DNA of 64,000 nucleotides from Lichenicola cladoniae (lineage in GTDB: Bacteria > Pseudomonadota > Alphaproteobacteria > Acetobacterales > Acetobacteraceae): contig NZ_CP053708.1 of the NCBI RefSeq assembly GCF_013201075.1, positions 239,001-303,000 on the forward strand, given 5' to 3'. The notes beneath the pieces are model-generated. The model did no database searches. It saw only the letters and a program-made list of their open reading frames with translations, and was not told the DNA's origin. Made by a program: the position numbers and the translations under genes. Positions 21,174 through 40,727 of this stretch are shown here, one piece after another; the first letter of the stretch is position 1, and each line of letters opens with the position of its first letter.

Positions 21174-21192
21174 GTCGGCGATCCCACTCTTA

Positions 21193-21212
21193 GTATATCA
21201 GCTAAGATATCA
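21193..21212. promoter_or_regulatory. Shared operator motif, copy 1 (before TonB receptor)
   Basis: On the minus strand this reads TGATATCTTAGCTGATATAC. Its core ATATC-TTAGCT-GATAT is a perfect inverted repeat and matches the copy at 40707-40727 in core, spacing and distance (about 20 bp) from the start codon. Probable site for the GntR regulator encoded at 22115. Confidence 0.6.
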
Positions 21213-21260
21213 AGAGAGACATTAACGATCGTCATCTGGTTTGCAAGCTAGAACCAACAC

Positions 21261-21305
21261 CGATTTAAAACTTTTATGTTAGTTAATCTTGCAGGGTTTA
21301 AATCG
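21261..21305. repeat. Inverted repeat after the racemase gene
   Basis: CGATTTAAA (21261-21269) and TTTAAATCG (21297-21305) form a perfect 9-bp inverted repeat with a 27-base gap. It begins ten bases beyond the racemase stop and precedes the TonB receptor on the same strand. It could slow or attenuate read-through; no T tract follows. Confidence 0.35.
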
Positions 21306-21314
21306 AAGAAACGT

Positions 21315-21974
21315 TTACCGAGTCGGTACAAGATCCAGCGACAGGAACGTCGCCGCCTGGGCGACTGCCGCCTGGACCGGATCGATGACCGGAATGCGAA
21401 GTGCTGCCTGGAGGGCCGCCCGATACGTTCCAAGACCTGCACATCCCAGAATAATGGCTTCGGCAAGGTCCTGGTCGCGTAGCGCCATGCCGACCGCAAC
21501 GAGGCGTTCCATGACTCCCTCTTGCTGTAGGTCGTCGACGCTCACGTTGATTGCCCGATCGCCGGCCAGTCGGGATATGAAGCCGAGGTCGCTTAGCCTG
21601 ACTGCGTGGCGACGTATGGATGCATCCACGATTGAGACCACACCGAACCGGCCGGCGAGACCCATCGCGGTCAGATAGGCCGCCTCGGCAATGCCGATGA
21701 CGGGGTGACCGGACGCGGCCCGCGCAGCCCTGACGCCGGGATCCGAGAAGCATGCGACGACGGCGATGTCGGCACCGGCGGCACGGATCGCGCCTAGTAC
21801 CGCCGGGACGACTTCGGCCACATGAGCGTCAGTTTCGATTCCGGACGGACCGTTCTGGTTGGTTGCGCAGTCGATCTGCAGCGCGCAACCCGCCCGCAAG
21901 CCATCGAGTGTTGCATCGAAGCCGGACGTGACGCGCTCGGAGGAATTTGGATTGAAAACGAAGATGCGCTTCAT
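21315..21974 (-). CDS. Asp/Glu/hydantoin racemase family protein
   Basis: A 219-residue racemase. The start at 21974 gives MKRIFVFNPNSSE, the conserved N-terminus of hydantoin/Asp-Glu racemases; the longer frame upstream is promoter sequence. Both catalytic cysteines are present, in VVACFSDPG and ILGCAGLGTY, as needed for cofactor-independent two-base racemisation at a C-alpha. It is divergent from a GntR gene whose operon encodes a cyclic amidohydrolase, a pairing known from hydantoin utilisation. The exact substrate (hydantoin, allantoin or amino acid) is not shown. Confidence 0.85.
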   Translation of the reverse strand: MKRIFVFNPNSSERVTSGFDATLDGLRAGCALQIDCATNQNGPSGIETDAHVAEVVPAVLGAIRAAGADIAVVACFSDPGVRAARAASGHPVIGIAEAAYLTAMGLAGRFGVVSIVDASIRRHAVRLSDLGFISRLAGDRAINVSVDDLQQEGVMERLVAVGMALRDQDLAEAIILGCAGLGTYRAALQAALRIPVIDPVQAAVAQAATFLSLDLVPTR

Positions 21975-22023
21975 GACCCGTTTCGAGGCTGAGACAAGAC
22001 TTCCGGACATCCGGGAGACAAGG

Positions 22024-22052
22024 TTGAGTTGATATCTCTCCAAATATATCAT
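22024..22052 (+). promoter_or_regulatory. GntR-gene promoter with overlapping operator copy 2
   Basis: TTGAGT (22024-22029), a 17-base spacer and TATCAT (22047-22052) form a good sigma-70 promoter for the GntR gene at 22115. The shared motif occupies 22030-22051, i.e. the whole spacer, with core ATATC-TCTCCA-AATAT (one arm base off perfect). On the minus strand TATGAT at 22053-22048 is a possible -10 for the racemase. Binding here would block both directions, implying autoregulation. Confidence 0.6.
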
Positions 22053-22114
22053 AAGCAGGTCGGGCTTTGATCTGCAAACCGCATGTGCGGGGTTGCGATG
22101 GGCAGGGACGATAG

Positions 22115-22816
22115 ATGCAGAAGCATGGCAAGGCGGGAGACGCAGGCAGCGCACGTGGTCCGTCGTTGATGGATCGGGCCTATGCGATCCTGCGGCGCGA
22201 GATCATTACATGCCAGTTGCCGCCGGGCAGCGAGATCTCCGAGCTTGAAATCGCCGACCGGCTCGGCATGAGCAAGACGCCGGTGCGCGAGGCACTCGGT
22301 CGCCTGGATATCGAAGGGTTCGTAGAGACCTTTCCGCGTCGTGGCTATCGGATCAAGCCGATCACGCTGCGCGACATCAACGATCTTTTCGCCGTCCGTT
22401 CGGTACTCGAGCAATCGGCAGCGACACTCGCCGCCAGATCGATGTCGGACCTGCAGCTCGATCATTTGTCCGCCCTGGCAGCCGCTTCCTATCGGCTCGA
22501 AGAGCATCACAGCCTCGATCATTTCGTGGAGACAAACCGGCTGTTCCATGAAGCGATCGCGGAGGGCTCGGGCAACCCGCGCCTAGCGGCGTTGGTGATG
22601 GCTCATATCGAGGAGAGCGAGCGCTTCTTCTATATCGGCGCCCGGTCCCGCGACGTGAACGTCGAGACCAATCACGATCATGCGGGCATTGTCGAAGTTC
22701 TTCGCAAGCGCGATGGCCCGGCCGCCGGCCACATCATGGGCCAGCATATCGACAATACCCACAGAGGCCTGGCAACCTCGCTGCTGACCTCGGCGACCGG
22801 CGGAGTCAGCCTGTGA
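22115..22816 (+). CDS. GntR family regulator, FCD subfamily
   Basis: A 233-residue ligand-responsive repressor. Residues about 18-80 are a winged helix (DRAYAILRREIITCQLPPGSEI, LGMSKTPVREAL, ETFPRRGYRI). Residues about 90-220 form an FCD ligand domain with metal-ligand-like residues (NRLFHEAIAEGSGNP, HDHAGIVEVLRKRD, HIMGQHI). It leads a forward operon; its stop overlaps the next start. It probably binds the ATATC-N6-GATAT sites at 21193, 22030 and 40707. Ligands of FCD regulators are usually carboxylic or amino acids. Confidence 0.9.
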   Translation: MQKHGKAGDAGSARGPSLMDRAYAILRREIITCQLPPGSEISELEIADRLGMSKTPVREALGRLDIEGFVETFPRRGYRIKPITLRDINDLFAVRSVLEQSAATLAARSMSDLQLDHLSALAAASYRLEEHHSLDHFVETNRLFHEAIAEGSGNPRLAALVMAHIEESERFFYIGARSRDVNVETNHDHAGIVEVLRKRDGPAAGHIMGQHIDNTHRGLATSLLTSATGGVSL

Positions 22817-23688
22817 TGCGCGCGCCGGACCCGGACGATGTGCGCAGCCGGGTCCTGATCACCGCCGAGGCGCTGGCCCGGCGTCGTGCCGCGGGGGAGG
22901 CGTTGGTCATTGTCGCGATACGGTCGGATGACAGTACCGCGCCGCGTCCCTTCGAGACGTCGCCGCGCCTGCCTGGCGCCTTCGACGGCTCGCTGGCGAA
23001 CGACTTCGCCGCCCCGTCGGATCCGGTGCTCGGCTCGCGCCCTCTTCCCTCGATCGCGCCGCTGCAGGACGTGGTCCGGCGCTGGGGCGTCACGCCGGAA
23101 ACGCTGGTTGTGGTCTATGACCATGACGGCAACCTGCAGGCAGCACGGGCCTGGTGGGTATTGCGCTGGGCCTCCCTGTCCAACGTCGTCATGCTCGATG
23201 GCGGTTTTGCAGCCTGGATGCGGGCCGGCCTGCAGGTCGATACGATGGTGCCCCCCGATCCGAAGCCAAGCGCGGTGATCCTGTCCGCAGGTCATATGCC
23301 GATGCTGGATGCAGAGGGGTCAGCCGCGCTGGCACGACGCGGAACCCTGTTCGACTCACGCATCTCGCCCAACTACGTCGGCGGTCCGACCGCTCCGGAT
23401 CAGGCGGCGCGCGGTCACATTCCCGGAGCATTGAACGTGCCCGCATCCGACAACCTCGACGCGGACGGTCGCTTTGCGGACGTGAACATCCTGCGTGCAC
23501 GTTATCGCGCCGAACACCCGGACTCGCTCGAGCCCGTCGGCATCTATTGCGGTGCAGGCGTCTCGGCAGCCCACACCGTCGCCGCCTTGGCGACGCTCGG
23601 CATCCAGGCGTCGATGTATCCCGGCTCGTGGTCCGCCTGGAGTTCCGACCCGGGCCGGGCGGTCGCCCGGGGACCGGAACCCGGCTGA
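22816..23688 (+). CDS. Sulfurtransferase, 3-mercaptopyruvate/thiosulfate type
   Basis: A two-domain rhodanese of 290 residues. The N-terminal domain (about 10-135) is the inactive rhodanese repeat with VVVYDHDGNLQAARAWW and MLDGGFAAW. The C-terminal domain carries the catalytic Cys near residue 245 in YCGAGVSAAH, matching the CGSGVTA loop of mercaptopyruvate sulfurtransferases more than the CRKGVT of thiosulfate enzymes. ATG at 22816 overlaps the GntR stop (TGATG). Next to a PatB/MalY C-S lyase, it suggests that sulfur is released or moved in this pathway. Confidence 0.85.
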   Translation: MRAPDPDDVRSRVLITAEALARRRAAGEALVIVAIRSDDSTAPRPFETSPRLPGAFDGSLANDFAAPSDPVLGSRPLPSIAPLQDVVRRWGVTPETLVVVYDHDGNLQAARAWWVLRWASLSNVVMLDGGFAAWMRAGLQVDTMVPPDPKPSAVILSAGHMPMLDAEGSAALARRGTLFDSRISPNYVGGPTAPDQAARGHIPGALNVPASDNLDADGRFADVNILRARYRAEHPDSLEPVGIYCGAGVSAAHTVAALATLGIQASMYPGSWSAWSSDPGRAVARGPEPG

Positions 23689-23737
23689 ACCACTGCGGCG
23701 GCGCAAGCGCGTCGCGCAGTTTCGACAGGATCGCCTG

Positions 23738-25102
23738 ATGGCTTATGACGACCTCATCTGCGGCACAATCGTCACGCCCGATGGCCCGATACAAGACGGC
23801 TGGGTCGCCGTAGCAAGCGGACGCATTGCCGAGATCGGCACCGGTGCGGAGCCGGATGCCGAACGGCGGCACGATTCCGGAGGCGGCCTGGTGCTGCCCG
23901 GTGTCATCGATGGCCAGACCCACGCCGGCAGCTACGGCGGCCTGGCCGGGCTCGCCTCGACCACCCGCTCGGCGATCGCCGGCGGCGTTACCACGATCGT
24001 CGACATGCCGTACGACAATCCCGAGCCGCTCAGCACGGTTGCCCTGCTGCACGACAAGATTGCCGCGATCGACGCGGATGCACATTGCGACGTGGCACTC
24101 TATGCGACGGTGATGCCGGGGCGGGGCGTCGGTGATGTCCGTGCATTGATCGAAGCCGGCATCGTTGCCTTCAAGATATCGTCTTTCGAGAGCAGCCCGA
24201 CGCGCTTCCCGCGTATCGCCGCCGACCTCATGCTCGACCTGCTGGAGGAACTGGCAGGCACCGATATTCCGCTCGGCCTGCACAACGAGGACCAGGAGAT
24301 CGTCCGTGCGCGGATGGCGCTGGCGCGTGCCCAGGGCCAGGACGGTATCGCCGCGCATTCCGCGAGCCGCCCGCTTGCCGCCGAACTGTCGGCATCCGCG
24401 GCGTTCCTGGAACTTGGTGCGGCAGCCGGTGGGCATGCGCATCTGGTGCATCTGTCGCACCCGCGCGGGTTCCGTCTGGTCGAGCATTATCGCGGCGATG
24501 GGTTTCGGTCGACCGGCGAGCTGTGCGTCCATTATCTGTGGTTCGACCCCGACACGGACGGCAAGACCCTCGGCGCGCTGATGAAGGTCAATCCGCCGAT
24601 CAGGCCCGGGCAGTGCGCGGCACTCTGGGCCGAGATCACCGAAGGCCGCGTGGCGTTCGTCAGCTCGGACCATTCGAGCTGGCCGATCGACAGCAAGCAG
24701 ACGCCGTCGATGTTCTCGGCCGGTGCCGGCGTGACCGGGCTCGAAACCCTCCTGCCGGCGTTCTTCACCGGTGCGGAGGCGCAGGGGCTCGATGCGGCCG
24801 CGCTCTGTGCCGCGCAGCTCAGCGAGCGGCCGGCGAAGTTCTTTGGCCTTTGGCCGCAGAAGGGCGCGATCCAGGTCGGTGCCGATGCCGACCTTGCGGT
24901 TCTCACGCCAGAAACTTTCCGATGGGACAGTGCGCACGCGCATGACGGGCTGAACTGGAGCCCGTACGATGGTCGCCAATTCTCGGCACGGGTCAGCCGC
25001 ACCTACTTGCGTGGCAAGCTCGCCTGGGATGGCACGGATGTTCGAGCCCAGGCCGGTCAGGGCCGTTACGTCCGGCGCGGCACCTCCGCCTGGTTTCGGT
25101 GA
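23738..25102 (+). CDS. Cyclic amidohydrolase, allantoinase/hydantoinase/dihydroorotase superfamily
   Basis: A 454-residue cytoplasmic metal-dependent hydrolase that would open a cyclic amide ring. Family features are LPGVIDGQTHAGS (metal loop), TTRSAIAGGVTTIVDMPYDNPEP, VAFKISSFES (position of the bridging Lys), GLHNEDQE, AHLVHLSHPRGF and SSDHSSWP (catalytic Asp). In the first metal motif the usual His-x-His is Gln60-Thr-His62, so one zinc ligand is replaced. The start at 23738 follows a weak ribosome site 49 bases after the sulfurtransferase; upstream frame is a shadow. Substrate may be a hydantoin or allantoin-like ring; the altered motif makes this uncertain. Confidence 0.8.
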   Translation: MAYDDLICGTIVTPDGPIQDGWVAVASGRIAEIGTGAEPDAERRHDSGGGLVLPGVIDGQTHAGSYGGLAGLASTTRSAIAGGVTTIVDMPYDNPEPLSTVALLHDKIAAIDADAHCDVALYATVMPGRGVGDVRALIEAGIVAFKISSFESSPTRFPRIAADLMLDLLEELAGTDIPLGLHNEDQEIVRARMALARAQGQDGIAAHSASRPLAAELSASAAFLELGAAAGGHAHLVHLSHPRGFRLVEHYRGDGFRSTGELCVHYLWFDPDTDGKTLGALMKVNPPIRPGQCAALWAEITEGRVAFVSSDHSSWPIDSKQTPSMFSAGAGVTGLETLLPAFFTGAEAQGLDAAALCAAQLSERPAKFFGLWPQKGAIQVGADADLAVLTPETFRWDSAHAHDGLNWSPYDGRQFSARVSRTYLRGKLAWDGTDVRAQAGQGRYVRRGTSAWFR

Positions 25103-25166
25103 CGGTGACGAACCTGGCCGGCGTCCCTTCTGAAACAATCAAGCAGTGCCTGGAGGCATACATCTG

Positions 25167-25931
25167 ATGGATCTCGGATTGACCGGAAAGCGTGCCCTGG
25201 TGCTGGGCGCCAGCCGCGGCCTCGGCGCCGCCAGCGCATTGGCCCTTGCACGCGAGGGCGTGCAGGTGATTGCAGCCTCGCGCCACCCGAAGCCGCTCGA
25301 GCCGGAAGCGAGCGTGGACATCTCGAAGCTCGTGCTCGACCTCTCCGACCCGGCATCGATCGGCGCGATGATCGATGCCGTCCTGGCCCAGGGCGGCGTC
25401 GATATCCTGGTCAACAATACCGGCGGCCCGGCACCGGGGCCGGTCGAGGGACAGCCTGCCGACGCCTGGAGCAACAGCTTCGCCATACTGGCGGCGTCCT
25501 TGTTCCGGATCACCGAGGCAATGCTGCCGACGATGCTGGCGCGCAACTGGGGACGGGTGATCACCATAGGCTCGTCGGGCGTCGAGCAGCCGATTGCCGG
25601 CCTCGCGCTTTCCAATGCGGTGCGTGGTTCGATCGCCGGCTGGTCGAAGACGCTGGCCACCGAGGTCGCGGCGCGCGGCGTGACCGTCAACATGGTGTTG
25701 CCGGGTCGGATCGCCACCGACCGGGTCGCCGAGCTCGATGGGGCACGCGCTGCACGCACCGGGCTGCCGATCGAGCAGGTGCAGCAGGCCTCGCGACAGG
25801 AGATCCCGGCCGGCCGCTATGGTCGACCGGAGGAGTTCGGCGCGGCGGTTGCCTTCCTGGCCGGTGTCCCGGCGTCGTACATCACCGGATCGATGATCCG
25901 GGTCGATGGCGGCGCGATCCGATCGATCTAG
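25167..25931 (+). CDS. Atypical SDR-fold protein
   Basis: A 254-residue Rossmann protein with LVLGASRGLGAASALALAREG for nucleotide binding and VNNTGGPAPGP in place of the NNAG motif. Where normal short-chain dehydrogenases have Tyr-x3-Lys, this one reads LALSNAVRGSIAGWSK, so the catalytic Tyr and Lys are absent. That matches a recognised atypical SDR subgroup annotated as ketoacyl-reductase-like. ATG at 25167 has GGAGG ten bases upstream and is preferred over a GTG at 25146. Role in the operon unknown. Confidence 0.75.
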   Translation: MDLGLTGKRALVLGASRGLGAASALALAREGVQVIAASRHPKPLEPEASVDISKLVLDLSDPASIGAMIDAVLAQGGVDILVNNTGGPAPGPVEGQPADAWSNSFAILAASLFRITEAMLPTMLARNWGRVITIGSSGVEQPIAGLALSNAVRGSIAGWSKTLATEVAARGVTVNMVLPGRIATDRVAELDGARAARTGLPIEQVQQASRQEIPAGRYGRPEEFGAAVAFLAGVPASYITGSMIRVDGGAIRSI

Positions 25932-25933
25932 CC

Positions 25934-27082
25934 ATGCCGCTGGACTTCGACGCGCCGGTCGACCGGATCGGGACCGACTGCTCGAAATGGAGCCGATACG
26001 GCCCGGACGTGCTGCCGCTCTGGGTGGCCGACATGGACTTCGCCGTCGCGCCCGGCATCGTCTCGGCACTGCAGGCCCGGCTGCAGCATCCGGTGTTCGG
26101 CTATGCCGCCGCCGGCGATGGTCTGCGCGCGCAGATCGTTGCCGAACTGCGGGAGAGTCACGACTGGACCGTGGGGCCGGAGGAGATCGTGTTCCTGCCC
26201 GGGGTGGAACCGGGTTTCAACATGGCCCTGCGCGCGCTGCTGCGTCCCGGCGACACCGTCGCGGTGCAGACGCCGATCTACCGGCCTATCCTGAACGCTC
26301 CCGGCCATTGGGGCATGCAGCGGCTCGACCTGCCGCTCCATCGGGAGCCAGGCGGCTGGTCGATGGACAGGGAGGCGCTGGAGGAGGGGATCGGCCGGTC
26401 CCAGGCACTGCTTCTGTGCAATCCGCATAACCCGACCGGCAAGGTCTTCACGCGCGACGAGCTTGCCGAGATCGCGGTCACATGCCTGTCGCATGGCACG
26501 CTGATCATTTCCGACGAGATCCATTGCGACCTGCTGCATGACGGGAGGCGTCATGTTCCGATCGCGTCGATCGACCCCGGCGTGTCCGACCGGACGATCA
26601 CGCTGATGGCGGCAAGCAAGACCTACAATATCGCCGGGCTGAAATGCGCCTTCGCCATCATCCGAAATCGGGCGATGCGCGCGACGTTCGAGGCGCATCG
26701 GCTCGGCATGGTCGACAGCGTGAACGCGCTGGGCCTGGTCGCGACCGAGGCGGCCTATGCCACCGGCAAGCCTTGGAAAACGGCGTTGCTGACCTACCTG
26801 CAAGCGAACCGCGATTACCTGGTCGAAGCGGTGCGGACACGCCTTCCGGGCCTGTCGATGCAGGCTCCGGAGGGAACGTTCCTGTCGTGGCTGGACTGCA
26901 CCGAGGCCAGGCTCGGCATGCCGGCGCAGCAGTTCTTTCTCGACCGGGCCAAGGTCGGACTGAATAATGGTTCGGACTACGATGCCGCCGCCGGCGACTT
27001 CGTTCGGCTGAATTTCGGATGCACCCGTGCTGTGCTGGAGGCGGCGATCGGCCGGATGGAAGCGAGCCTGTCGGCAGGATGA
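25934..27082 (+). CDS. PatB/MalY family PLP-dependent C-S beta-lyase or aminotransferase
   Basis: A 382-residue fold-type I PLP enzyme. Typical PatB/MalY features are LPLWVADMDF near the N-terminus, CNPHNPTGKVF, ISDEIHCDLL (Asp/His cofactor contacts) and ASKTYNIAGLKC, with the Schiff-base Lys in SKTYN. Such enzymes cleave cystathionine or S-substituted cysteines to thiol, pyruvate and ammonia. It begins two bases after the SDR-like gene and overlaps the OppD gene by four bases, so it is firmly in this operon. Confidence 0.86.
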   Translation: MPLDFDAPVDRIGTDCSKWSRYGPDVLPLWVADMDFAVAPGIVSALQARLQHPVFGYAAAGDGLRAQIVAELRESHDWTVGPEEIVFLPGVEPGFNMALRALLRPGDTVAVQTPIYRPILNAPGHWGMQRLDLPLHREPGGWSMDREALEEGIGRSQALLLCNPHNPTGKVFTRDELAEIAVTCLSHGTLIISDEIHCDLLHDGRRHVPIASIDPGVSDRTITLMAASKTYNIAGLKCAFAIIRNRAMRATFEAHRLGMVDSVNALGLVATEAAYATGKPWKTALLTYLQANRDYLVEAVRTRLPGLSMQAPEGTFLSWLDCTEARLGMPAQQFFLDRAKVGLNNGSDYDAAAGDFVRLNFGCTRAVLEAAIGRMEASLSAG

Positions 27083-28089
27083 GCGAGGCCTGCGCCCGTC
27101 CGACGCCGGACCTTCCGGTCCTTGCCGTGGACCGGCTCTCGGTCACGTTCGCGAGCGGGCGAGCATCGGTCCGTGTGGTCGACGATGTCAGTTTCACACT
27201 CGGGCAAGGCGAGATCCTGGCGCTGCTGGGGGAGTCCGGCTGCGGCAAGAGCATGACCGCACTGGCGATCATGGGGCTGGTCCCGGGCGCTGGACGGCCG
27301 GGTGGGCGGGTCATGCTGGATGGCGAGGCGCTGCTGGACGTGCCTCCGGACCGTTTGCGCGCGCTGCGTGGCCAGCGCATGGCGATGGTGTTCCAGGACC
27401 CGATGTCGGCGCTCAACCCGGTGCTGAGCTTGGGCAACCAGATCGGCGAGGCGCTGCGTTGTCACACCGGCCTGCGTCGCGCGGCACTGCGCGATCGCGT
27501 GGTGGCGCTGCTCGGCGAGGTCGGGCTGGCAGATCCGGCGCAGGTGGCCGACCGGTTCCCGCATGAACTGTCCGGCGGCATGTGCCAGCGCGTCATGATC
27601 GCGATGGCGATCGCCTGCGACCCGGGATTGCTGATCGCCGATGAGCCGACCACGGCGCTGGACGTGACCGTGCAGAAACAGATCCTCGACCTGCTGCATG
27701 GCCTGCGCCGGCGGCATCGCACCGCCATCCTGTTGATCACCCACGATCTCGGCGTAGTCGCCGAGAATGCCGACCGGGTCGCGGTCATGTATGCCGGGCA
27801 GGTGGTCGAGGAGGCGCCGGTCGCCGTGTTGTATGCCCGGCCGGCGCATCCCTACACGCTGGGGCTGCTGCGCTCGATGCCCCGGCTGGAGTCCCGGCCG
27901 GACGATGACCCCGGCAGCTTCTACGCCATCCCGGGCACGGTTCCCGATCCGGCGAACCTGCCGCCGGGCTGCCGGTTCGAACCGCGCTGCGACCGGGCCG
28001 ACCAGGCCTGCCGCGAGACCGCCCCGGCACTGGAGGCGCTCCGGCCGGATCATCGGGTGCGTTGCTGGCATCCGGTCGCGGGTCCATGA
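27079..28089 (+). CDS. Oligopeptide/dipeptide-type ABC ATPase, OppD/DppD-like
   Basis: A 336-residue ATPase with Walker [10 protein letters not shown], signature [15 protein letters not shown], Walker [15 protein letters not shown] and the C-terminal oligo_HPY extension ([20 protein letters not shown] with Cys-rich end). ATG at 27079 overlaps the C-S lyase stop. No permease or binding-protein gene lies next to it; the matching DppB/DppC-type genes are on the other strand at 37248-39097. Confidence 0.92.
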
Positions 28090-29072
28090 GCGCGCCGCTG
28101 CTGCAGGTCACCGGCCTCGGCAAGAGCTATCCGGTTCGCAACGCCTGGCCGTTCGCCGCGCGTCGCACGGTGCGTGTGCTCGACGATGTCAGTTTCAGCC
28201 TCGACCGTGGCGAAACGCTCGGGCTGGTCGGTGAGTCCGGAAGTGGAAAATCAACCACCGGGCGGGTCATCCTCAAGCTGGTTCCGGCCTCCGGCGGCTC
28301 GGTGCGCTTCGATGGCCAGGAAATCCTCCCGCTGTCCGAGCCCGCGTTCCGCCCGTTGCGCCAGGCGATGCAGATGGTGTTCCAGGATCCCGCCGGTTCG
28401 CTCAACCCGTCGGACCGCGTCGGCCGGATCATCGGCGAAACGCTCGGCGTACATGCGCCAGGCCTGTCCGCATCCGACCGGGTGGCGCGCACCAACGAAC
28501 TGCTTGGGATGGTCGGGCTCGATCCAGCCGCATCCGGGCGCTATCCGCACGAGTTTTCCGGCGGGCAGCGGCAGCGGATCGGGATCGCGCGGGCGCTTGC
28601 AGTCGGCCCGCGCCTGATCATCGCCGACGAGCCGGTCTCCGCACTCGACGTCTCGGTGCAGGCGCAGATCCTGAACCTGATGCGCGACCTGAAGGCGCGG
28701 CTGGGCTTGTCCTATCTGTTCATCGCGCACGATCTCGCGGTGGTGCGGCAGATGAGCGACCGGGTCGCGGTCATGTATCGCGGACAGATCGTGGAGACTG
28801 CGAGCAGCCACGACATTTATCGTACACCGGCGCACCCCTATACGCGGCTGCTGCTCAGTGCGATCCCACGTCCCGAAGTGCCGAAACCGGTGAGGGATCA
28901 GGCGGCGCCCGATCTGCCGATGGCTAGCCAGCCGTCGGACGCATCGTCCGTGGGGACGGGGGGCTGTGTCTTTACGGCACGCTGTCCGATCCGCAGCCCG
29001 ATCTGCGTCGAGGTGCGACCGCAGACGCGGCTGGTTGGCACGAACCATCATGTGGCGTGCCACAATAGCTGA
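28086..29072 (+). CDS. Oligopeptide/dipeptide-type ABC ATPase, OppF/DppF-like
   Basis: A 328-residue partner of the preceding ATPase. Walker A GESGSGKST, Q-loop QMVFQDPAGSLNPSDRV, signature FSGGQRQRIGIARAL, Walker B LIIADEPVSALDVS, and a Cys-containing C-terminal oligo_HPY region (GCVFTARCPIRSPIC). The start overlaps the OppD stop as ATGA. It ends the operon; a hairpin with a T-rich tail follows. Confidence 0.92.
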   Translation: MSAPLLQVTGLGKSYPVRNAWPFAARRTVRVLDDVSFSLDRGETLGLVGESGSGKSTTGRVILKLVPASGGSVRFDGQEILPLSEPAFRPLRQAMQMVFQDPAGSLNPSDRVGRIIGETLGVHAPGLSASDRVARTNELLGMVGLDPAASGRYPHEFSGGQRQRIGIARALAVGPRLIIADEPVSALDVSVQAQILNLMRDLKARLGLSYLFIAHDLAVVRQMSDRVAVMYRGQIVETASSHDIYRTPAHPYTRLLLSAIPRPEVPKPVRDQAAPDLPMASQPSDASSVGTGGCVFTARCPIRSPICVEVRPQTRLVGTNHHVACHNS

Positions 29073-29104
29073 GTGACTTTCCGAGGGTGCTGCTGCGATA
29101 GCCT

Positions 29105-29135
29105 GGTGGAAAAATCAGACGGTTTCCACCTTATT
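29105..29135 (+). terminator. Probable intrinsic terminator after OppF-like gene
   Basis: Perfect 8-bp stem GGTGGAAA/TTTCCACC with a 10-base loop, followed by TTATT, 33 bases past the stop. It separates the GntR operon from the amidohydrolase operon. Confidence 0.55.
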
Positions 29136-29327
29136 GCGCCGAAATCAGGTGTGCGAGCCAGGTCGATGGACGGACGATCCCGCCTGACCCGGCCACATCG
29201 ATCCATTGGCTGCACCTGTCGCGCAGTCCCGGCGCACGGGTTTACACCGACGAACGGCGAGAGCAGTATGCCCGGGAATTAAATAATTGCCCGGACGAGG
29301 TCAACTCAAGTGGGGCGGGAGCGATCG

Positions 29328-31038: not shown

Positions 31039-31100
31039 GCGAAAATCACGCACTTAACGAAATGGAAGAGCCGCCAAGCGGCCTCTAGGGGGAATATGTC

Positions 31101-32519: not shown

Positions 32520-32521
32520 CA

Positions 32522-33307: not shown

Positions 33308-33411
33308 AGGCTGGGTCCGTCCCGACGCGCATCTTCGATGCCGAAGCGAGCAGGCGGAAATCCGATTCCGGAACCGTCTGCGCCGCCTCCGAAAGAACGT
33401 CTCACGGCCCC

Positions 33412-35436
33412 TTACGCCGAGACGACGATCCTGAAGCCATTGCCGCGCCAGAACCCGTCCGGTTCGAGGCTGCCCCTATAGGTGCAGCAGGCTTTCGCCT
33501 TGCCACTGGAGAAGCAGCCGCCGCGCAGCACGCGCCGGATCGATGCGTCCGCCGTAGGATTTTCGCGTCCATCCGTCCGGTAGGGATAGGCCCAGGCCGG
33601 ATGAGCCATGTCGGGGCCCCAGAGGGTGCTGGTCCATTCCCAGACCTGACCCGTCATGTCGTCCAGCCCGAACAGCGATCGCCCCGCCGGGAACAGGCCC
33701 ACGGCGCAGGTATCGTTCAGCCCGGTTTCGCTGGAATTGGCACGGCTCGGGTGCCAGCCTCCTTCCCACGGATAGACGATTAAAGGGTCCTGATCAGGCT
33801 GGCCGCACCGGGCGGCGTGTTCCCACTCCGGTTCGGTCGGCAGCCTCACCCGCTCCTGCATCGCGATCCGGCCGTCGGCGCGCCACCGGTCCGTCAGCCA
33901 GTCGCAGAACGCGTTCGCATCGTGCCAGGTCAGGTCGACCGCCGGCACATTGGCGCGTTCGGCACGCGGCCCGTCGGCGCTTCGCCACGGCCGTCCGGTG
34001 GCGGCGATGAAACCGGCATAGGCCCGGTTCGTGATGGGATACCGGCCGACCCGGAAGGCGGCCGTCGCGGCGGCATGGACCGGCATCGAGTTGGGGTGGG
34101 TCGTCGACCCCATGACGAACCCGGCGGCCGGGATCGAGATCAGCAAGTCGAGGTCGCGCGGATCACCCGCTTGCGCCAGGTGCCGGCCAGCCGCGACGCG
34201 CAGCGGTATCGGCAGCCTATCTCCTGCAATGGCGGCCAACAGCGCCTGCACGACCGTGTCCCAGGCACCTGGCCATGAGGGCAGCCCCTCGGTTTCGATA
34301 ACACCGGCCGCCACCAGCGCGCCCCGCCCGCCGGCTGCATCCGGGAGGGAGGCCAGCCCGTCCACCAGGCTGGCGAGCGAGGTTGCGGCGCCTGTGTCAC
34401 CGGTTGCCCTGTCCGAGAGCCGTCGACCGGTCAGTCCGGCGGGCTCGGCCCAGCGGACGGGGTCGCTGGCGAACATCGCGAGAATTGCGGATGGGCCGAT
34501 CGTCTCGAGATGGCGGGCCACGAGATGAAGCGAGACCAGCGACGACAGGTCGTTCGGTGCCGGTACTGCGTCGCGATGGTTGTCGAATGCCTGCGCGGCC
34601 AGCTGGGCGACCGCGTTGTCCGAGCCAAGGGCCGCAAGAAGCCAGGCATCGACCAGTCGATAGGGCGTCTCGGGCGGATCGACGAGATCGAGCGACAACA
34701 GGAACAATTCGGGCAGTGCCGGCCCACCGCGTGCCGACATGGCTTCGGCCGCCGGCGCGACGGCCTTGCGGTAGGCATCCCGCTGCGTCTCCAGCAACGG
34801 CAACAGGCTGTATGTGGCAAAAACGTCCGGCAGCGACCAACCAGCGCAGTGCCCGGTTTCACCGAGCACCAGCACACGCAGCGTCGGCACGCGTGCCAGC
34901 AGGTCGCCGAGTGCGGCGAACATCTCCGCGGCCGACGCGTCAAGATGCTCCGCGCCATCGAGGATCAGCAACATCGGCTCGCCTGCACCGAGCGTCGGCG
35001 CACCGGGGAGGGCTTCCAGCACCGCAGCGAGCGTGGTCGGCCCGGTGACCCGCAGATAGACCGGCACCGGTAACTTCCCGCTCCAGGCTTCCGGTGCGAC
35101 ATCCCCGAGATCGTTGCGCGGCAGCACGCGCTCCAGGCGGGCGAGGTTGAAGGCGGGATCGCCGATCCGCTCGCCCGCGAGGTTGAGAGCGAGATCGAGC
35201 GCGAAGCTCGTCTTGCCGGCACCGTGCGGTCCCAGCAGGAGCACGGCGCGGTCCTGCGCCACGACCTCGACGGCGGAATAATGGATCGGTGGTCGCGCCG
35301 CACTCGGGTCGGCAATGGTCCGAAGTCCCTTTGCCGCTCTGTCTTCGTGCGTATAGTTCACCAGCAGCGGCAGATATGTCTTCCGCGCCCCGAAACGCGC
35401 GATCAGCGTACGGCACGCGGCATCCGCCTTGTTCAT
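33412..35436 (-). CDS. STAND-like NTPase fused to FGE-sulfatase (SUMF1/EgtB/PvdO-like) domain
   Basis: A 674-residue fusion. Walker A is GPHGAGKTS at residues 69-77 and Walker B-like LLILDGAEHL has Asp160, the arrangement of NACHT/STAND-type NTPases. Residues about 200-440 are helical. From about 440 to the end is an FGE-sulfatase domain (AAGFVMGSTT, VGRYPITNRAYAGFI, VRLPTEPEWEHAARCG, VWEWTSTLWG, VLRGGCF and GFRIVV). Near the active-site position it has CCTYRG, but the first cysteine of true formylglycine generators is not in its usual place, so it may be a non-catalytic or EgtB/PvdO-like domain. It is last in a transporter operon and overlaps the VOC gene by four bases. No sulfatase is nearby. 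Function unknown. Confidence 0.78.
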   Translation of the reverse strand: MNKADAACRTLIARFGARKTYLPLLVNYTHEDRAAKGLRTIADPSAARPPIHYSAVEVVAQDRAVLLLGPHGAGKTSFALDLALNLAGERIGDPAFNLARLERVLPRNDLGDVAPEAWSGKLPVPVYLRVTGPTTLAAVLEALPGAPTLGAGEPMLLILDGAEHLDASAAEMFAALGDLLARVPTLRVLVLGETGHCAGWSLPDVFATYSLLPLLETQRDAYRKAVAPAAEAMSARGGPALPELFLLSLDLVDPPETPYRLVDAWLLAALGSDNAVAQLAAQAFDNHRDAVPAPNDLSSLVSLHLVARHLETIGPSAILAMFASDPVRWAEPAGLTGRRLSDRATGDTGAATSLASLVDGLASLPDAAGGRGALVAAGVIETEGLPSWPGAWDTVVQALLAAIAGDRLPIPLRVAAGRHLAQAGDPRDLDLLISIPAAGFVMGSTTHPNSMPVHAAATAAFRVGRYPITNRAYAGFIAATGRPWRSADGPRAERANVPAVDLTWHDANAFCDWLTDRWRADGRIAMQERVRLPTEPEWEHAARCGQPDQDPLIVYPWEGGWHPSRANSSETGLNDTCAVGLFPAGRSLFGLDDMTGQVWEWTSTLWGPDMAHPAWAYPYRTDGRENPTADASIRRVLRGGCFSSGKAKACCTYRGSLEPDGFWRGNGFRIVVSA

Positions 35437-35837
35437 GATCGCGATGGTCCGGCCGTGTGAAACAGGGCGGCGACAGCCGGATCCCGGAATCGCTGCACCT
35501 CGATGGCGTAGCCGCTGGGGTCCTCGAAAAAGAAATGTTCGCAGAACCGGCCGAACAGGATCTCCGACATGCCCGGCACCCCGTCCTGCCGCAGGCGATT
35601 ATGCCAGGCGATGACGTCGTCGACCACGATCGTCAGCAGCACGGCGCTGTTCGGCTGGTGGTGAAGATGGCCGCGATTGCCATCGACGATGCCGAAATAG
35701 CTGCCGCCGCCGATACGGTAGATCCGCGCCATTCCCTGGTCGAGCACGAGCTCGAACCCGAGCGTCTGCTCATAGAACGGGATCACCACGTTGAGGTCAT
35801 CGTAATAGAAGAACGTGATAGTATAGTCCGCGGTCAT
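35433..35837 (-). CDS. VOC (glyoxalase/dioxygenase) superfamily protein
   Basis: About 134 residues with paired beta-alpha-beta-beta-beta units: YDDLNVVIPFYEQTLGFELV near the start and HFFFEDPSGYAIEVQRF at the end, both typical of glyoxalase-like proteins. The Glu in YAIEVQ is a probable metal ligand; the rest of the metal set is not clear. ATG at 35837 has AGGA eight bases upstream; ATG at 35858 is possible. It sits between a binding-protein gene and the NTPase-FGE gene in one operon. Confidence 0.8.
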   Translation of the reverse strand: MTADYTITFFYYDDLNVVIPFYEQTLGFELVLDQGMARIYRIGGGSYFGIVDGNRGHLHHQPNSAVLLTIVVDDVIAWHNRLRQDGVPGMSEILFGRFCEHFFFEDPSGYAIEVQRFRDPAVAALFHTAGPSRS

Positions 35838-35850
35838 CGAGATGTCCTGG

Positions 35851-37251
35851 TCATGCATCAAGTTTCAGGATGCCCTTGTGGTCGAGGCCGATACCGGACC
35901 GGAGCCGGGTGGCGAGCACGCCGACCGGGTGGAACAGATACAGCCAGGGCGGATCGGCGTTGAGCCGCGACAGGCAGCGTCCATAGGCCACGGCGCGATC
36001 GCCATCCTCGACGCTGTCGTTGGCGGCCCGGATCAGCGTCTCGATCTCCGGGTTCTCGTAGCCCTGCCACCAGACGCCGTGCGTCGTGCTGGAAATCTTG
36101 TCGTTCAGCACCCTGTAGGTGCTGTGCGGCGAAGAGTCGAAGATGGCGAGATCGCCCATGTGCCCGGCGCCGATCTCGCGGGCGTATTCCGGCCGGTCCG
36201 GCTGTTCGTCGAGCCTGACCCGCACACCGACCTCGGCCAGCGCGTCCTGCACCATCAGGCTGATCCGCAGGGCACGTGTCGGCATGTGGTGCGGAGTGCG
36301 CAGGACTAGCTCGCCGGATGGGGCGGCCCGGTCCAGCAGCCGTCGCGCCATGTCCGGGTCGTAGGCAAGTGGCGCTACCGCCGCGTCGCGATACCCGAGA
36401 TGGAACGGGCTGACGATCGTTGCAGCCGGTTCGGCAAGTCCGCCGAACAGATCACGCACGATCCGTGTCTTGTCCACGGCGTGATTGATCGACCGACGCG
36501 CCTCAGCGGAGCGGAAGAACCCGGTGGCGCAGTTCAGGTAATACATCACCGACAAGGTGCCGGTCGCCCGGTGCCAGTTGAGATCGTCGCCGAAGTCCGG
36601 GCCGCGCTCCAGCAGTTCGAGGCCGCAGGCGATGTCCGCTTCGCCGGCCCGTACACGCCGCCGCCGCTCCTCCGCACTCGGCACCGCGATTGCCACGAGG
36701 CGCGATGTGTCGTTCCCGTGCACCGGCTCGAGTATCGCGCGGTCCTGCGGCGTGAACTCGGCAACCCGATAAGGCCCGGTCCCGAGCACGGGGAAGCCTG
36801 CCGCATCGTTTTTCGAGATATAGAACTCGGAGAACACGTCGAGCATGTCGGCGAACGGGTGCGGGCTGGAGACACCGAGCGCGGTGTCTGATAGGACGCT
36901 GAAGCGCGTGTGTTCGAAGTAGCGCGCATACGACCATTTCATGCCGAACATGTCGAGCGAGTCGAGGATCGCCTCGATGAAGGCGAGGATATCGGCCGCC
37001 GTGCAGGGTGTTCCATCGTGGAACCGTGCGTTCTCGCGGATCTCGAACCGCCATGTGCGGCCGCTGCCGTCGTGGCTCCAGCGCGCGAACAGGGCCGGGC
37101 GGACAAGCCCCTCGTGCCAGCGGCAGAGCGGCTCGAACACCAGCGATTTCAGCGTCAGGATACTGGCATCGTCGGTGACGCGGTTCGACGGCAGGAAGTC
37201 GACGCGTTCGAGGACGATCACACGCTCGGTCATCCGCAAGGCCCTGGTCAT
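35851..37251 (-). CDS. Oligopeptide-type (SBP_bac_5) binding protein lacking a signal peptide
   Basis: About 466 residues. Family stretches include LTLKSLVFEPLCRWHEG, TWRFEIRENARFHDGTPCTAADI (split across the conserved FHDG motif), GTGPYRVAEF and ARRSINHAVDKTRI. The ATG at 37251 overlaps the DppC-type stop as ATGA and leads straight into the mature fold, with no hydrophobic leader; an upstream 37-codon extension is only the tail of the permease frame. So it may be cytoplasmic, unlike the partner at 39094-40689. It could be a solute sensor or a degenerate duplicate. Confidence 0.8.
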   Translation of the reverse strand: MTRALRMTERVIVLERVDFLPSNRVTDDASILTLKSLVFEPLCRWHEGLVRPALFARWSHDGSGRTWRFEIRENARFHDGTPCTAADILAFIEAILDSLDMFGMKWSYARYFEHTRFSVLSDTALGVSSPHPFADMLDVFSEFYISKNDAAGFPVLGTGPYRVAEFTPQDRAILEPVHGNDTSRLVAIAVPSAEERRRRVRAGEADIACGLELLERGPDFGDDLNWHRATGTLSVMYYLNCATGFFRSAEARRSINHAVDKTRIVRDLFGGLAEPAATIVSPFHLGYRDAAVAPLAYDPDMARRLLDRAAPSGELVLRTPHHMPTRALRISLMVQDALAEVGVRVRLDEQPDRPEYAREIGAGHMGDLAIFDSSPHSTYRVLNDKISSTTHGVWWQGYENPEIETLIRAANDSVEDGDRAVAYGRCLSRLNADPPWLYLFHPVGVLATRLRSGIGLDHKGILKLDA

Positions 37252-38090
37252 GATGAACGGCGCCGCTGGCGCGGGTCGAGCAGCGCACCGAGAGAATCGC
37301 CGATCAGGTTGAACGACAGCACCGTCAGCAGGATGGCGAGCCCGGGAGCCAGGGCCACCCAAGGCGCGCTACGAACAGTTTCGAGGTTGGCGGCGATGTC
37401 GGCACCCCATTCCGGCAATGGCGGCTGCGCGCCCAGCCCGAGGAACCCGAGGCTCGCGGTCTGCAGGATGGCGCTGCTGATCGACAGGGTCGCCTGGGTC
37501 AGCAACGGCCCGATCCCGTTGCGCAGGATGTAGCGCACCAGGATGCGGCCGGTCGGTATGCCGATGCAGCGTGCCGCCTCGACATGCAGCGCGGTCGACA
37601 GCAGGGCGGCCTGCGCGCGGGCCACGCGGGCGAACTGCGGCGCCAGGGTGATGGAAATCGCCATCATGGCGTTGCCGAGGCTCGGACCGAAGGCCGCCGC
37701 CAGCGCGATGGCCAGCACCAGCGCCGGGAAGCTCAGCAGCGCGTCGACCAGCCGCATGATCACGCTGTCCAGCAACCCGCCGAAGAATCCGGCGATGGTG
37801 CCGACCGTGACTCCGGCGATGAACGCCGATGCCACCACGAGCACGCCGATCGCCAGCGTGGCGCGACCGCCGTAGAGCACGCGCGACAGCACGTCCCGGC
37901 CGAACATGTCGGTCCCGAACGGATGTGCCGCCGACGGTGGCCGCAGCATGTGCAGCACGTCGAGCCGGTCCGGGGGCGCGCCAGCCAGCAGCGGCGCGGC
38001 GGCGATCGCCAGCAGCAACAGCGTCAGCATGGCGAGGCCGGCCGTCGCCAGGGGGCTTGCACGAAGCAGCGTGCGCACGCGGGCGATCAT
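37248..38090 (-). CDS. DppC/OppC-like ABC permease
   Basis: A 280-residue inner-membrane permease with six TM segments. The N-terminus has RASPLATAGLAMLTLLLLA, followed by HPFGTDMFGRDVLSRVLYG, the hallmark of DppC-type subunits, and an EAA-like loop with HVEAARCIGIPTGRIL. The start at 38090 overlaps the DppB stop as ATGA. Its ATPases are most likely the OppD/OppF proteins at 27079-29072. Confidence 0.92.
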   Translation of the reverse strand: MIARVRTLLRASPLATAGLAMLTLLLLAIAAAPLLAGAPPDRLDVLHMLRPPSAAHPFGTDMFGRDVLSRVLYGGRATLAIGVLVVASAFIAGVTVGTIAGFFGGLLDSVIMRLVDALLSFPALVLAIALAAAFGPSLGNAMMAISITLAPQFARVARAQAALLSTALHVEAARCIGIPTGRILVRYILRNGIGPLLTQATLSISSAILQTASLGFLGLGAQPPLPEWGADIAANLETVRSAPWVALAPGLAILLTVLSFNLIGDSLGALLDPRQRRRSS

Positions 38091-39097
38091 CTCGATTGCC
38101 GGCGCAGGCGGGGATCCAGCCGCAGCGCGATCAGGTCGACCAGCAGCGAGGTCAGCACGAACATCAGCGCGAACACCAGGGTCGCACCCTGGATCGCCGG
38201 GTAGTCGCGGTTGCGGATCGCCTCGAACGTGTAGCGGCCGAGGCCGGGCCAGGAAAACACCGTCTCGGTCAGGATGGCGCCGCCCAGCATGTCGCCGAAC
38301 TGCAGGCCGATCACGGTCACCGCCGGCAGGATCGCGTTGCGCAGCGCATGGCGCACGATCACCGCGCGTTCCTGCAATCCCTTCGCCCGGGCGGTGCGGA
38401 TGTAGTCGCTGGTCATGGTGGCGATCATGGTGTTGCGGACGAAGCGGCTGAGCGTGGCGGCGAGGAAGCTCGCCAGCACCGAGGCCGGCAGCAGCACGTG
38501 CCGGATCGCGTCCCACAGCGCGCTCCCGTCGCCCTCGAGCACCGCGTCGAGCATGACGAAGCCGGTGATGCCGGTGCGGATCTCCCAGGGATCGGTGCGG
38601 CCGGCGACCGGCAGCCAGCCGAGCCAGACCCCGAAAGCGTATTGCAATCCCAGCGCCAGCAGGAATGCCGGCACCGACACCCCGGCCAGCGCGACGAGCC
38701 GCAGCGCCTGGTCGAGCGGTCCTTCCGGCCGGCGCGCCGCCCAGACCCCGAACGGAATGCCCACCGCGAGCGCCATCAGCAGTGCCGTGACGGAAAGCTC
38801 GATCGTCGCCGGCAGCCTGGTCGCCAGCGCCCGCGAGATCGGCTGGCCGGTCTTGAGCGAGGTGCCGAAATCGCCGTGCGCCAGGCCGCCGACATAGGAC
38901 AGGAACTGCCGTGCCTCGGGTTCGTCGAGATGCAGTTGATGCCGGAGCGCGTTCAGCTGCGCGTTGGTGGCGCCGGGCCCGAGCAGGGTAACCGCGGGGT
39001 CGCCGGGGATAAGCCGGGTCAGGCCGAACACCATTACCAGGACCAGCGCCAGCACCGGCACGACGGCCAGCAGGCGGCGGCCGAGATAGAGGCTCAA
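38087..39097 (-). CDS. DppB/OppB-like ABC permease
   Basis: A 336-residue permease. It begins SLYLGRRLLAVVPVLALVLV, has the DppB signature FGLTRLIPGDPAV, and the EAA-like loop DYIRTARAKGLQERAVIVRHALRN. The only start compatible with the family N-terminus is TTG at 39097, which overlaps the binding-protein stop (TTGA), so it depends on translational coupling. Longer upstream frames are shadows of the binding protein. Confidence 0.9.
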   Translation of the reverse strand: MSLYLGRRLLAVVPVLALVLVMVFGLTRLIPGDPAVTLLGPGATNAQLNALRHQLHLDEPEARQFLSYVGGLAHGDFGTSLKTGQPISRALATRLPATIELSVTALLMALAVGIPFGVWAARRPEGPLDQALRLVALAGVSVPAFLLALGLQYAFGVWLGWLPVAGRTDPWEIRTGITGFVMLDAVLEGDGSALWDAIRHVLLPASVLASFLAATLSRFVRNTMIATMTSDYIRTARAKGLQERAVIVRHALRNAILPAVTVIGLQFGDMLGGAILTETVFSWPGLGRYTFEAIRNRDYPAIQGATLVFALMFVLTSLLVDLIALRLDPRLRRQSR

Positions 39098-40689
39098 GGA
39101 CCGGTTCCGGCTGCAGGATCGCGGTGAACCGACCGGTATTCGGTCAACGGGGGGGCGCCGCTGAGCTTCAGTCCCCGGATGTCGGCCCGCGCGAACACGA
39201 TCACCCTGTTGCTGAACAGATAGATTCCGGGCACGCGGTCCATGATCCGGTGCTGGATCTCGCCATAGAGCGCCTTGCGCCGGACCGGATCCGGACAGGA
39301 CTGGGCCTCGAGGATCAACCCGTCCAGCGCCCGGTCGGGTGGCATCCTGAAGGTCATCGCGGTGTCGGCCAGGCTCGACAGGTACCCGATCGTGATGTGC
39401 GCATCCGGATCGTTGTACCAGGCCTCGCGGCCATCGAGTGCCACCTCGAAATGGCCTCCGGTCTGGATGGTACGCAGGCTCGGGAACTCGACCTGCTCGA
39501 TCCGCACGTCCAGGCCGACCGCGGCGAAGTTCGCCTGCAGGAAGGTCGCCACCGTCGCCCATAGGCTGCCCTGGAAGGTGTAGAGGGTCAGGTGGATGCT
39601 GCCAGGGGCGTAACCGGCCTCACGCAACAGGCGGCGGGCCTGGACGGGGTCATAATGGAACGCGGTGCGTTCCATGGTCGGGTCGTACGCCCAGTTGCTG
39701 CTGGGCAATGGCCCGTAGGCACGATCGACGGTGCCGTCCATGACGCCGTCGATCAGGCCGTCGTAATCGACCGCGAGGGCCATCGCACGCCGCACCCGCA
39801 GGTCCCGCGTCGGACCGCCGGCGGCCCGGTTGTTGAACTCGAGCTGGCGCATGATCTGGCTCGGGGCCTCGATCACCTGGATCGCTGGGTTCCTGCGATA
39901 GGCCTTCAGATCCTCCATCGGCAGCGCCGAGAGCTGTCCGTTCTGCTGGCAGATGTCGATGTCGCCATTCTCGAGCATCAGGCGACGCGTCGAGGCATCG
40001 GCGATGACCAGATAGACGATCCGCCGCATTCCGGGTGCGCCCCGGAAATAGGTGGGAACCGCATCCAGGATGAGGCTCACGTCGGGATCGTAATGGCATA
40101 TGCGAAATGGCCCGCTGCCGACCGGCGTGTTGGCAAACGCGGCCCCCATCGAACGCACCGCCGTCGGGCTCACGATCGCCGCCTGGGGCTGGGCCAGCAG
40201 GGTCAGCAGGAAAGGGATCGGCCGCGAGAGCCGGATCTCGACGATCCAGCGACCCGTGACCGTGACGGCCTGCACCGCATCGAGGCTCGCGCGCGTGTAG
40301 GAGTTGTGCGTCAGGCTGCGATCCAGGGAGAATTTGACCGCTTCCGCATCGCAGGCAGTACCGTCATGGAAGCTCACGTCGGTGCGCAGCTGGAATGTGG
40401 TGACGCACCCGTCCGGCGAAACCGTCCAGGATCGTGCCAGCCTGGGTTCCGGCATGGTCTGGCTGGCATCGCCCCAGGCGACCAGCGTGTCGAACACGTT
40501 GAGGATGATCTCGCTGCCGATCGGTTCGGCGCGATTGACCGCCGGCTCGAGCCCGACCGGGTCGGACGCGACGGCGATCACCAGTGTCTGTGCCCGCAAC
40601 GATGCGGACGATGCTGCCCTGGCCCACGCTGGCAACAGGAAGCCGGCGCCTGTGGCGAGCACCATCTCCCGTCGCGCCAGCATGACCAT
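39094..40689 (-). CDS. Oligopeptide-type ABC substrate-binding protein, exported
   Basis: About 531 residues. The N-terminus (LARREMVLATGAGFLLPAWARAAS) is a Tat-like or Sec signal, then VIAVASDPVGLEPAVNRAEPIGS and SFHDGTACDAEAVKFSLDR identify SBP_bac_5. The ATG at 40689 is preferred to TTG at 40704 and ATG at 40683. It is first in the reverse operon binding protein-DppB-DppC-second binding protein-VOC-NTPase/FGE. The shared ATATC-N6-GATAT motif lies 18 bases upstream, matching the arrangement before the TonB receptor. Confidence 0.88.
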   Translation of the reverse strand: MVMLARREMVLATGAGFLLPAWARAASSASLRAQTLVIAVASDPVGLEPAVNRAEPIGSEIILNVFDTLVAWGDASQTMPEPRLARSWTVSPDGCVTTFQLRTDVSFHDGTACDAEAVKFSLDRSLTHNSYTRASLDAVQAVTVTGRWIVEIRLSRPIPFLLTLLAQPQAAIVSPTAVRSMGAAFANTPVGSGPFRICHYDPDVSLILDAVPTYFRGAPGMRRIVYLVIADASTRRLMLENGDIDICQQNGQLSALPMEDLKAYRRNPAIQVIEAPSQIMRQLEFNNRAAGGPTRDLRVRRAMALAVDYDGLIDGVMDGTVDRAYGPLPSSNWAYDPTMERTAFHYDPVQARRLLREAGYAPGSIHLTLYTFQGSLWATVATFLQANFAAVGLDVRIEQVEFPSLRTIQTGGHFEVALDGREAWYNDPDAHITIGYLSSLADTAMTFRMPPDRALDGLILEAQSCPDPVRRKALYGEIQHRIMDRVPGIYLFSNRVIVFARADIRGLKLSGAPPLTEYRSVHRDPAAGTGP

Positions 40690-40706
40690 CCAGAGTTCAC
40701 CCAATC

Positions 40707-40727
40707 TGATATCTCAAATGATATATC
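40707..40727. promoter_or_regulatory. Shared operator motif, copy 3 (before binding-protein operon)
   Basis: Core ATATC-TCAAAT-GATAT, a perfect inverted repeat extended by TG on the left and ATC on the right. It is nearly identical to copies at 21193-21212 and 22030-22051. Location immediately upstream of the operon start codon fits a repressor site. Confidence 0.6.

Follow-up and report, generated by a model that had tools for sequence, protein, structure and literature searches.

Tandem AT-rich sites before three operons of Lichenicola cladoniae, probable operators of an FCD-type GntR regulator

Three related sites and their genes

The stretch analysed here ("the window") is 64,000 nucleotides of the Lichenicola cladoniae genome (contig NZ_CP053708.1, positions 239,001 to 303,000). 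It carries genes for a TonB-dependent receptor, a racemase, a GntR-type regulator starting at position 22115, several enzymes and the parts of an ABC transporter (Table 1). Three related 22-bp sites, S1 to S3, stand before the TonB receptor gene, in the divergent promoter between the racemase and GntR genes, and before an operon of binding proteins and permeases. We consider it likely that these sites are operators of an autoregulated FCD-type GntR repressor, the 22115 protein, which would bind them as adjacent dimers and co-control uptake across both membranes together with a C-S lyase/hydantoinase-like pathway.

The regulator exhibits a GntR winged helix-turn-helix domain (PF00392, 55.6 bits, cut-off 27) and an FCD domain (PF07729, 83.7 bits, cut-off 24.3), the domain composition of the FCD (FadR) subfamily. 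The gene identities given for the three loci in a preliminary description of this stretch agree with the Pfam matches (TonB receptor, Asp/Glu/hydantoin racemase, GntR with FCD, SBP_bac_5 and BPD_transp_1). The same description had placed one motif, ATATC-N6-GATAT, at all three loci. Matches are indeed found there, at 21195-21210 (S1), 22032-22047 (S2) and 40709-40724 (S3), each within 2 bp of the place claimed. The repeat is exact, thus a perfect inverted repeat as had been said, at S1 (ATATCAGCTAAGATAT) and S3 (ATATCTCAAATGATAT), but S2 (ATATCTCTCCAAATAT) has one mismatch. With up to two mismatches the N6 pattern matches at 27 places in the window, shuffled sequences averaging 9.08 (standard deviation 3.11). 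The distance of 18-20 bp to the start codon is right for the 40709 repeat, which is 19 bp from the ATG at 40689, and slightly short for the 21195 repeat, 21 bp from the ATG at 21173; the start of the TonB receptor is itself uncertain, because matches to its relatives begin at residue 32 or later. As also claimed, S2 fills the -35/-10 spacer of the predicted GntR promoter. A better description of the sites is TGATAT-N10-ATATCA, that is two 10-bp palindromes TGATATATCA at a 12-bp pitch, of which the N6 repeat is one internal register.

Table 1. Sites, predicted promoters and genes of the window
Feature	Position	Strand	Remarks
Putative operator S1	21191..21212	-	Upstream of TonB receptor gene; contains exact N6 repeat 21195-21210
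Putative operator S2	22030..22051	.	Racemase/GntR divergent promoter; exact TGATAT-N10-ATATCA
Putative operator S3	40707..40728	-	Upstream of binding-protein/permease operon; contains exact N6 repeat 40709-40724
Predicted sigma-70-like promoter, GntR operon	22024..22052	+	TTGAGT-17-TATCAT; consensus scan only; 5/6 of -10 in S2
Predicted promoter, binding-protein operon	40718..40746	-	TTGACG-17-TATCAT; consensus scan only; -10 inside S3
TonB-dependent receptor	18687..21173	-	Pfam; 69-71% identity to three relatives' receptors; start uncertain
Asp/Glu/hydantoin racemase family protein	21315..21974	-	Pfam
GntR-FCD regulator, proposed binder of S1-S3	22115..22816	+	Pfam; 233 residues
Rhodanese / 3-mercaptopyruvate sulfurtransferase-like	22813..23688	+	Pfam/NCBIfam
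Cyclic amidohydrolase, ErtD (hydantoin-5-propionate amidohydrolase)-related	23495..25102	+	NCBIfam
Short-chain dehydrogenase (SDR)	25146..25931	+	Pfam/NCBIfam
PatB-family C-S lyase	25934..27082	+	TIGR04350, 415.5 bits (cut-off 340)
Two Opp/Dpp-type ABC ATPases	27019..29072 (27019-28089, 28062-29072)	+	Starts approximate
Family-5 solute-binding protein (SBP_bac_5)	39094..40689	-	Pfam; first gene of S3 operon
Two ABC permeases (BPD_transp_1)	37248..39562 (open reading frames 38087-39562, 37248-38516)	-	Pfam
Rest of S3 operon	33412..37362	-	SBP_bac_5 35851-37362; glyoxalase-like 35433-35861; FGE-sulfatase-domain 33412-35436

Conservation of the sites with the regulator

A contig scan with the regulator returned six related loci (L046-L051), from which a Kushneria locus (L051, 27% GntR identity) was excluded from comparisons. 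The GntR protein is 64% identical in Gluconacetobacter tumulisoli (L046), 63% in Ameyamaea chiangmaiensis (L047), 58% in Gluconobacter albidus (L048), and 56% and 54% in two loci from metagenome-assembled genomes (L049 and L050, respectively). In each of the three named species, the TonB receptor, GntR and binding-protein operons all carry a related site, and tblastn comparison identifies the three promoters as those of orthologous operons. All 12 matches to TGATAT-N10-ATATCA with at most two mismatches in these loci (57 kb) lie before those three operons; the count includes two matches overlapping each other in L046 and likewise two in L047, one match (L048 3736) abutting the likely TonB start codon, and one (L046 20631) overlapping the end of a listed open reading frame (ORF).

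The TonB receptor, GntR, rhodanese, C-S lyase, two ATPases and first binding protein are present in all three relatives. Permeases are found in Gluconacetobacter (L087) and Gluconobacter, the Ameyamaea stretch stopping inside the binding-protein gene, too short to show them. The Gluconacetobacter binding-protein operon, situated directly past the end of the L046 stretch, has the gene order of the window, FGE protein included. Compared with Gluconobacter, the window operon has the opposite orientation and stands apart from the ATPases, yet its site is kept. The occurrence of sites before the same three operons in three relatives supports the earlier proposal that the three promoters share one operator, which is linked to the 22115 GntR protein and joins uptake across both membranes. 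On these comparisons, the three operons are very probably co-controlled as a regulon of this protein.

In an unfiltered run on the window, a site model built from the nine relatives' sites only (R1; 18 rows, both strands) gave its three highest scores to S3 (16.7 bits), S2 (14.7) and S1 (11.1); the next match scored 5.3. Genome-wide (6.06 Mb, E-value up to 10, 150 of 222 first-look candidates scored) R1 reported S3 and S2 only. A second model including the window sites (R2) returned exactly S3, S2 and S1 from the genome (150 of 316 candidates scored), which is circular for these three.

The sites track a close GntR clade and not its distant homologues. Where the GntR protein is at least 50% identical, a site is found at its promoter: in the window, in L046-L048 and in a further locus, L054, with weaker sites (5 to 9 bits) in L049, L050 and L052. 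In contrast, 27 distant homologues (L019-L045, 37-46% identity) exhibit no R1 site at E-value ≤5 within up to 1.5 kb on each side. The recognition helix differs likewise, reading [GT][KR]AP[VI]RAAL in all 26 of the distant homologues L020-L045 and SKTP[VI]REAL in the clade with sites. A search of 299 same-family genomes with the GntR protein gave matches at 1e-30 in 48, led by a paralogue on contig C2 of the L. cladoniae genome (65%), an Ameyamaea genome (G009, 62%), G011 (50%) and G178 (46%), the rest being lower; the four same-genus genomes in this sample gave no match at that threshold. Among four genomes with a GntR match, R2 found three sites in G009 and one in G011 (all training sites), one in G178 and none in G256.

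Several observations weigh against the assignment of S1-S3 to the 22115 protein. The one exception to the clade rule is G178 (L019, the same as L055), whose GntR protein (46%) has the helix SKTPVREAL and whose GntR gene has no site of its own. R1 is a hold-out of sequences only, the nine sites having been picked after the window motif was known; its scores are modest, and S1 is weak in it and missing from its genome-wide list. R2 found six sites in five of 20 family genomes with no GntR match at 1e-30 (those listed among 251), the best at 14.9 bits. Single sites of about 15 bits in genomes lacking the regulator are therefore attributable to chance or to other regulators, and the strength of the case is in three sites, at three related promoters, in four species. 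Loose forms of the motif are common. The genome-wide scan that the preliminary description had proposed (6,061,304 bases, 8 contigs) found exact ATATC-N6-GATAT at three places, two of them S1 and S3, but the one-mismatch form at 104 places (20 for the reversed pattern); this loose pattern alone is thus not diagnostic, and was dropped as such. Likewise, TGATAT-N10-ATATCA with at most two mismatches occurs at 45 places in the L. cladoniae genome and at 50, 33 and 58 in three relatives (reversed controls 18, 14, 11 and 18), so that only its concentration at these promoters speaks for an operator. The motif further has no GT/AC core of the kind usual in FadR-subfamily sites, and the consensus of 13 aligned sites (below) does not contain the TKGT/ACMA boxes of that subfamily. 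Finally, the 65%-identical paralogue on C2 might share the sites.

Such sharing, which would extend the assignment to the 22115 protein without competing with it, we regard as possible but rather unlikely. The recognition helices of the two proteins are near-identical, and the paralogue has a cluster of its own with related sites before the paralogue gene (C2:196140), near a TonB receptor start (199550) and before an FMO-TonB gene pair (209801). With R1 or R2, however, these sites reach no more than 5 to 10 bits, and C2:196140 was not reported by R1 at E-value ≤5, which suggests a partly diverged specificity.

Contig C2 also carries a decayed partial copy of the cluster (L052 7330-8826), with an SDR 96.6% identical to the window SDR (25146-25931), fragments of the rhodanese in two reading frames and, of the amidohydrolase, just the C-terminal part (89%). 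A pair of hydantoin-racemase-like and ErtD-like amidohydrolase genes (46% and 54%; L072 9312-11296) stands near the FMO-TonB pair with the weak site in front. In G178, a match on contig C227 (L088 1230-2960; TGATATATCACACGACATATCA, 15.1 bits) lies 62 bp before a 308-aa ORF, which is followed by an SDR-like frame (a two-piece match) 60-64% identical to the window SDR. A match in G007 was counted as background; the GntR homologue lying about 1 kb away from it is 34-35% identical. The best site of L050 (15456-15478, 10.2 bits with R1) is 31 bp before an SBP_bac_3 gene and one of L049 at 13241-13258 (9.2 bits) 133 bp before a DAO-type oxidoreductase gene; both are weak.

Site geometry and probable mode of control

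Exact TGATAT-N10-ATATCA is found at S2 and nowhere else in the genome. With one mismatch the 22-mer scan gave two places, S3 and C1:4132734, the latter rejected as a further site since it falls inside listed ORFs. With two mismatches it gave 42 places, S1 included. Three AT-rich two-mismatch places outside the cluster (L074, L075 and L076) were also set aside, being without cluster genes save a generic SDR match (29%) in L075.

S1 contains two TGATATATCA-like 10-mers (8/10 each) at the 12-bp pitch, with a weaker third (6/10) beyond, and S3 contains two of 9/10 each. Thirteen sites (three from the window, nine from L046-L048 and one from L054) align without gaps to TGATATATCA-NN-TGATATATCA, with 10-mer matches of 6-9/10 at offsets 0 and 12 in every site, a fit that is partly by construction because the sites were picked with the N10 pattern. 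In the mean of the four TonB promoters, the third-highest match falls at offset 24 (6.25 of 10) and the sixth-highest at offset 36 (5.0); the Gluconacetobacter TonB promoter alone gives matches of 9, 8, 7 and 8 at offsets 0, 12, 24 and 36.

It is improbable that, in the same regulon, a single dimer recognises the 16-bp inverted repeat ATATC-N6-GATAT as its unit. In its favour, exact copies stand at S1, at S3 and at one site of a relative (L046 20635). However, these three are the only exact copies among the 13 aligned sites, and no other was found in the window, L046-L050, L052, L054 or L055. Moreover, the information in the alignment, of sites picked with N10, peaks in the 22-mer at positions 3-6 and 17-20, and in a 10-mer repeated at 12 bp. 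The N6 repeat is not the conserved register that the preliminary description took it for, TGATAT-N10-ATATCA fitting the relatives better.

The predicted -10 boxes lie within S3 and nearly within S2, which points to repression. The consensus scan gave no promoter at S1; in the Ameyamaea and Gluconobacter binding-protein promoters, TTGACC is seen by eye ahead of the operator. On the assignment to the 22115 protein, the recognition unit would be the 10-bp palindrome, with one dimer per palindrome. Each operator would offer two units 12 bp apart, the relatives' TonB promoters hinting at a third and a fourth. With neighbouring dimers bound, the -10 box would be covered and RNA polymerase shut out, until a metabolite, probably a small carboxylate formed from the imported compound, released the GntR protein. 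The TonB receptor and the racemase would then be induced jointly with the binding-protein/permease operon and with the operon that runs from GntR through rhodanese, amidohydrolase, SDR and C-S lyase to the ABC ATPases. Such joint control would unite outer-membrane uptake, two separately transcribed halves of an ABC transporter and the catabolic enzymes.

Another transcription factor could bind the sites instead, be it the SorC-type regulator encoded at 29863 or a protein from another part of the genome. This we consider quite unlikely. Such a regulator is indeed present in the window, and binding by the GntR protein is what we infer, but the eight relative loci, stretches of 12-21 kb chosen by the GntR gene, exhibit no SorC match at 1e-10 within these limits, whereas in L046-L048 and L054 the GntR gene has a site in its own promoter. 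Least probable of all is chance or plain AT-rich promoter sequence with no operator role: the -10 boxes do overlap S2 and S3, matches occur in genomes without the regulator and the loose N10 form is found at dozens of places per genome, but a dyad and tandem structure recurs at three orthologous promoters in four species, and the window sites take the first three ranks in 64 kb with a model built without them.

Known regulators and the possible pathway

The regulator is homologous (E-value 4.8e-16) to Atu1419 of Agrobacterium fabrum, a member of the VanR group of FCD GntR proteins with a solved structure (PDB 6z74). As described for Atu1419 (PMC7797058), the dimer binds a 10-bp AT-rich palindrome, ATGTATACAT, at sites that overlap -10 boxes, and acts as a repressor of catabolic genes and of its own gene. 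Arg45 reads an essential G3, the change of which to A abolishes binding, and a tetramer is able to loop DNA between sites 109-190 bp apart. The units described here differ from these sites in their 12-bp spacing and in position 3, which is A in place of G, the residue aligned with Arg45 being Lys54. Since Lys is also found at this position in 24 of the 26 distant homologues that lack sites, the match of Arg to Lys with G to A is consistent with a switch of recognition and not proof of one. This possible switch of helix specificity is testable against the Atu1419 structure.

A tandem-repeat operator is known from the E. coli GntR-type repressor NanR, the dimers of which sit side by side (PMC8012715). 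According to the same source, the NanR unit is GGTATA in three direct repeats, and cooperativity depends on a 32-residue N-terminal extension. The unit here is by contrast a 10-bp palindrome. In the 22115 regulator (233 residues), the Pfam match to GntR starts only at residue 20, which leaves an N-terminal extension of about 19 residues at most. In the comparative-genomic account of FadR-subfamily regulons (PMC4494728), TKGT/ACMA boxes form the consensus, operators lie in divergent promoters and extra boxes occur 7-12 nt from the main site; NanR and BioR are named there as exceptions, so that a GT/AC core is not universal in the subfamily. The present sites share with these regulons the subfamily and the divergent-promoter location, but have an AT/AT core.

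With regard to the pathway, the 23495 amidohydrolase best matches ErtD of ergothioneine utilisation (NF058538), but at 500.8 bits, under the family cut-off of 600. Its listed ORF start is too far upstream, the amidohydrolase family match beginning at residue 85. Other enzymes of the ergothioneine pathway are ergothionase and thiourocanate hydratase; neither is among the genes scanned, no search aimed at them having been made. The Gluconobacter stretch (L048 1355-15694, 15.7 kb) exhibits no match at 1e-10 to the racemase or the amidohydrolase, which are therefore probably not core genes; GntR, rhodanese, C-S lyase, transporter and the three sites are all retained there. The window SDR is without a match in the L046-L048 stretches.

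Gene content and order suggest that the ATPases downstream of the GntR gene pair with permeases of the S3 operon as one ABC transporter, and the operon limits assumed here have the same basis. A common operator would keep these transporter halves in step. The permeases probably start near 39100 and 38080, the listed starts overlapping upstream genes.

Most likely, the system would serve to scavenge an organic sulfur compound; cyclic-ureide steps would be an optional addition. From general chemistry, candidate substrates presumably include cysteine S-conjugates, hydantoins and 2-aminothiazoline-4-carboxylate. The search for the substrate is defined by the cargo of the TonB receptor and the family-5 binding proteins, which should end as a substrate of the C-S lyase.

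From the gene comparisons, the regulon is very likely real; it would be a new one within a known family of regulators, its operator being somewhat unusual. Among the matches listed, the literature on the motif, the regulator family and the enzymes yielded no description of it. A bolder combination is nearly balanced in our judgement, leaning slightly to doubt: that the operator code of this GntR clade is new (tandem TGATATATCA at 12-bp pitch, side-by-side dimers, Lys for Arg, A for G) and that the clade also controls an undescribed pathway of uptake and C-S cleavage, with an ABC transporter split over two co-regulated operons. The analysis gives an uncharacterised uptake pathway of acetic acid bacteria a candidate regulator, operator and set of genes.

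Three other genes of the window may be mentioned. A second TonB receptor gene (48910-51432, in the region 48910-56087) adjoins urease genes; its product is 37-38% identical to the relatives' copies of the first, and R1 found no site in front of it in the window at E-value ≤5. The ORF at 32033-33307 has a metallo-beta-lactamase fold and is closest to AttM-type N-acyl homoserine lactonases, with 154.9 bits far under the cut-off of 390. The last gene of the S3 operon (33412-35436) joins an FGE-sulfatase domain, weakly similar to EgtB/SenA, to an AAA-type region, and its FGE part is kept in Gluconacetobacter (64%).

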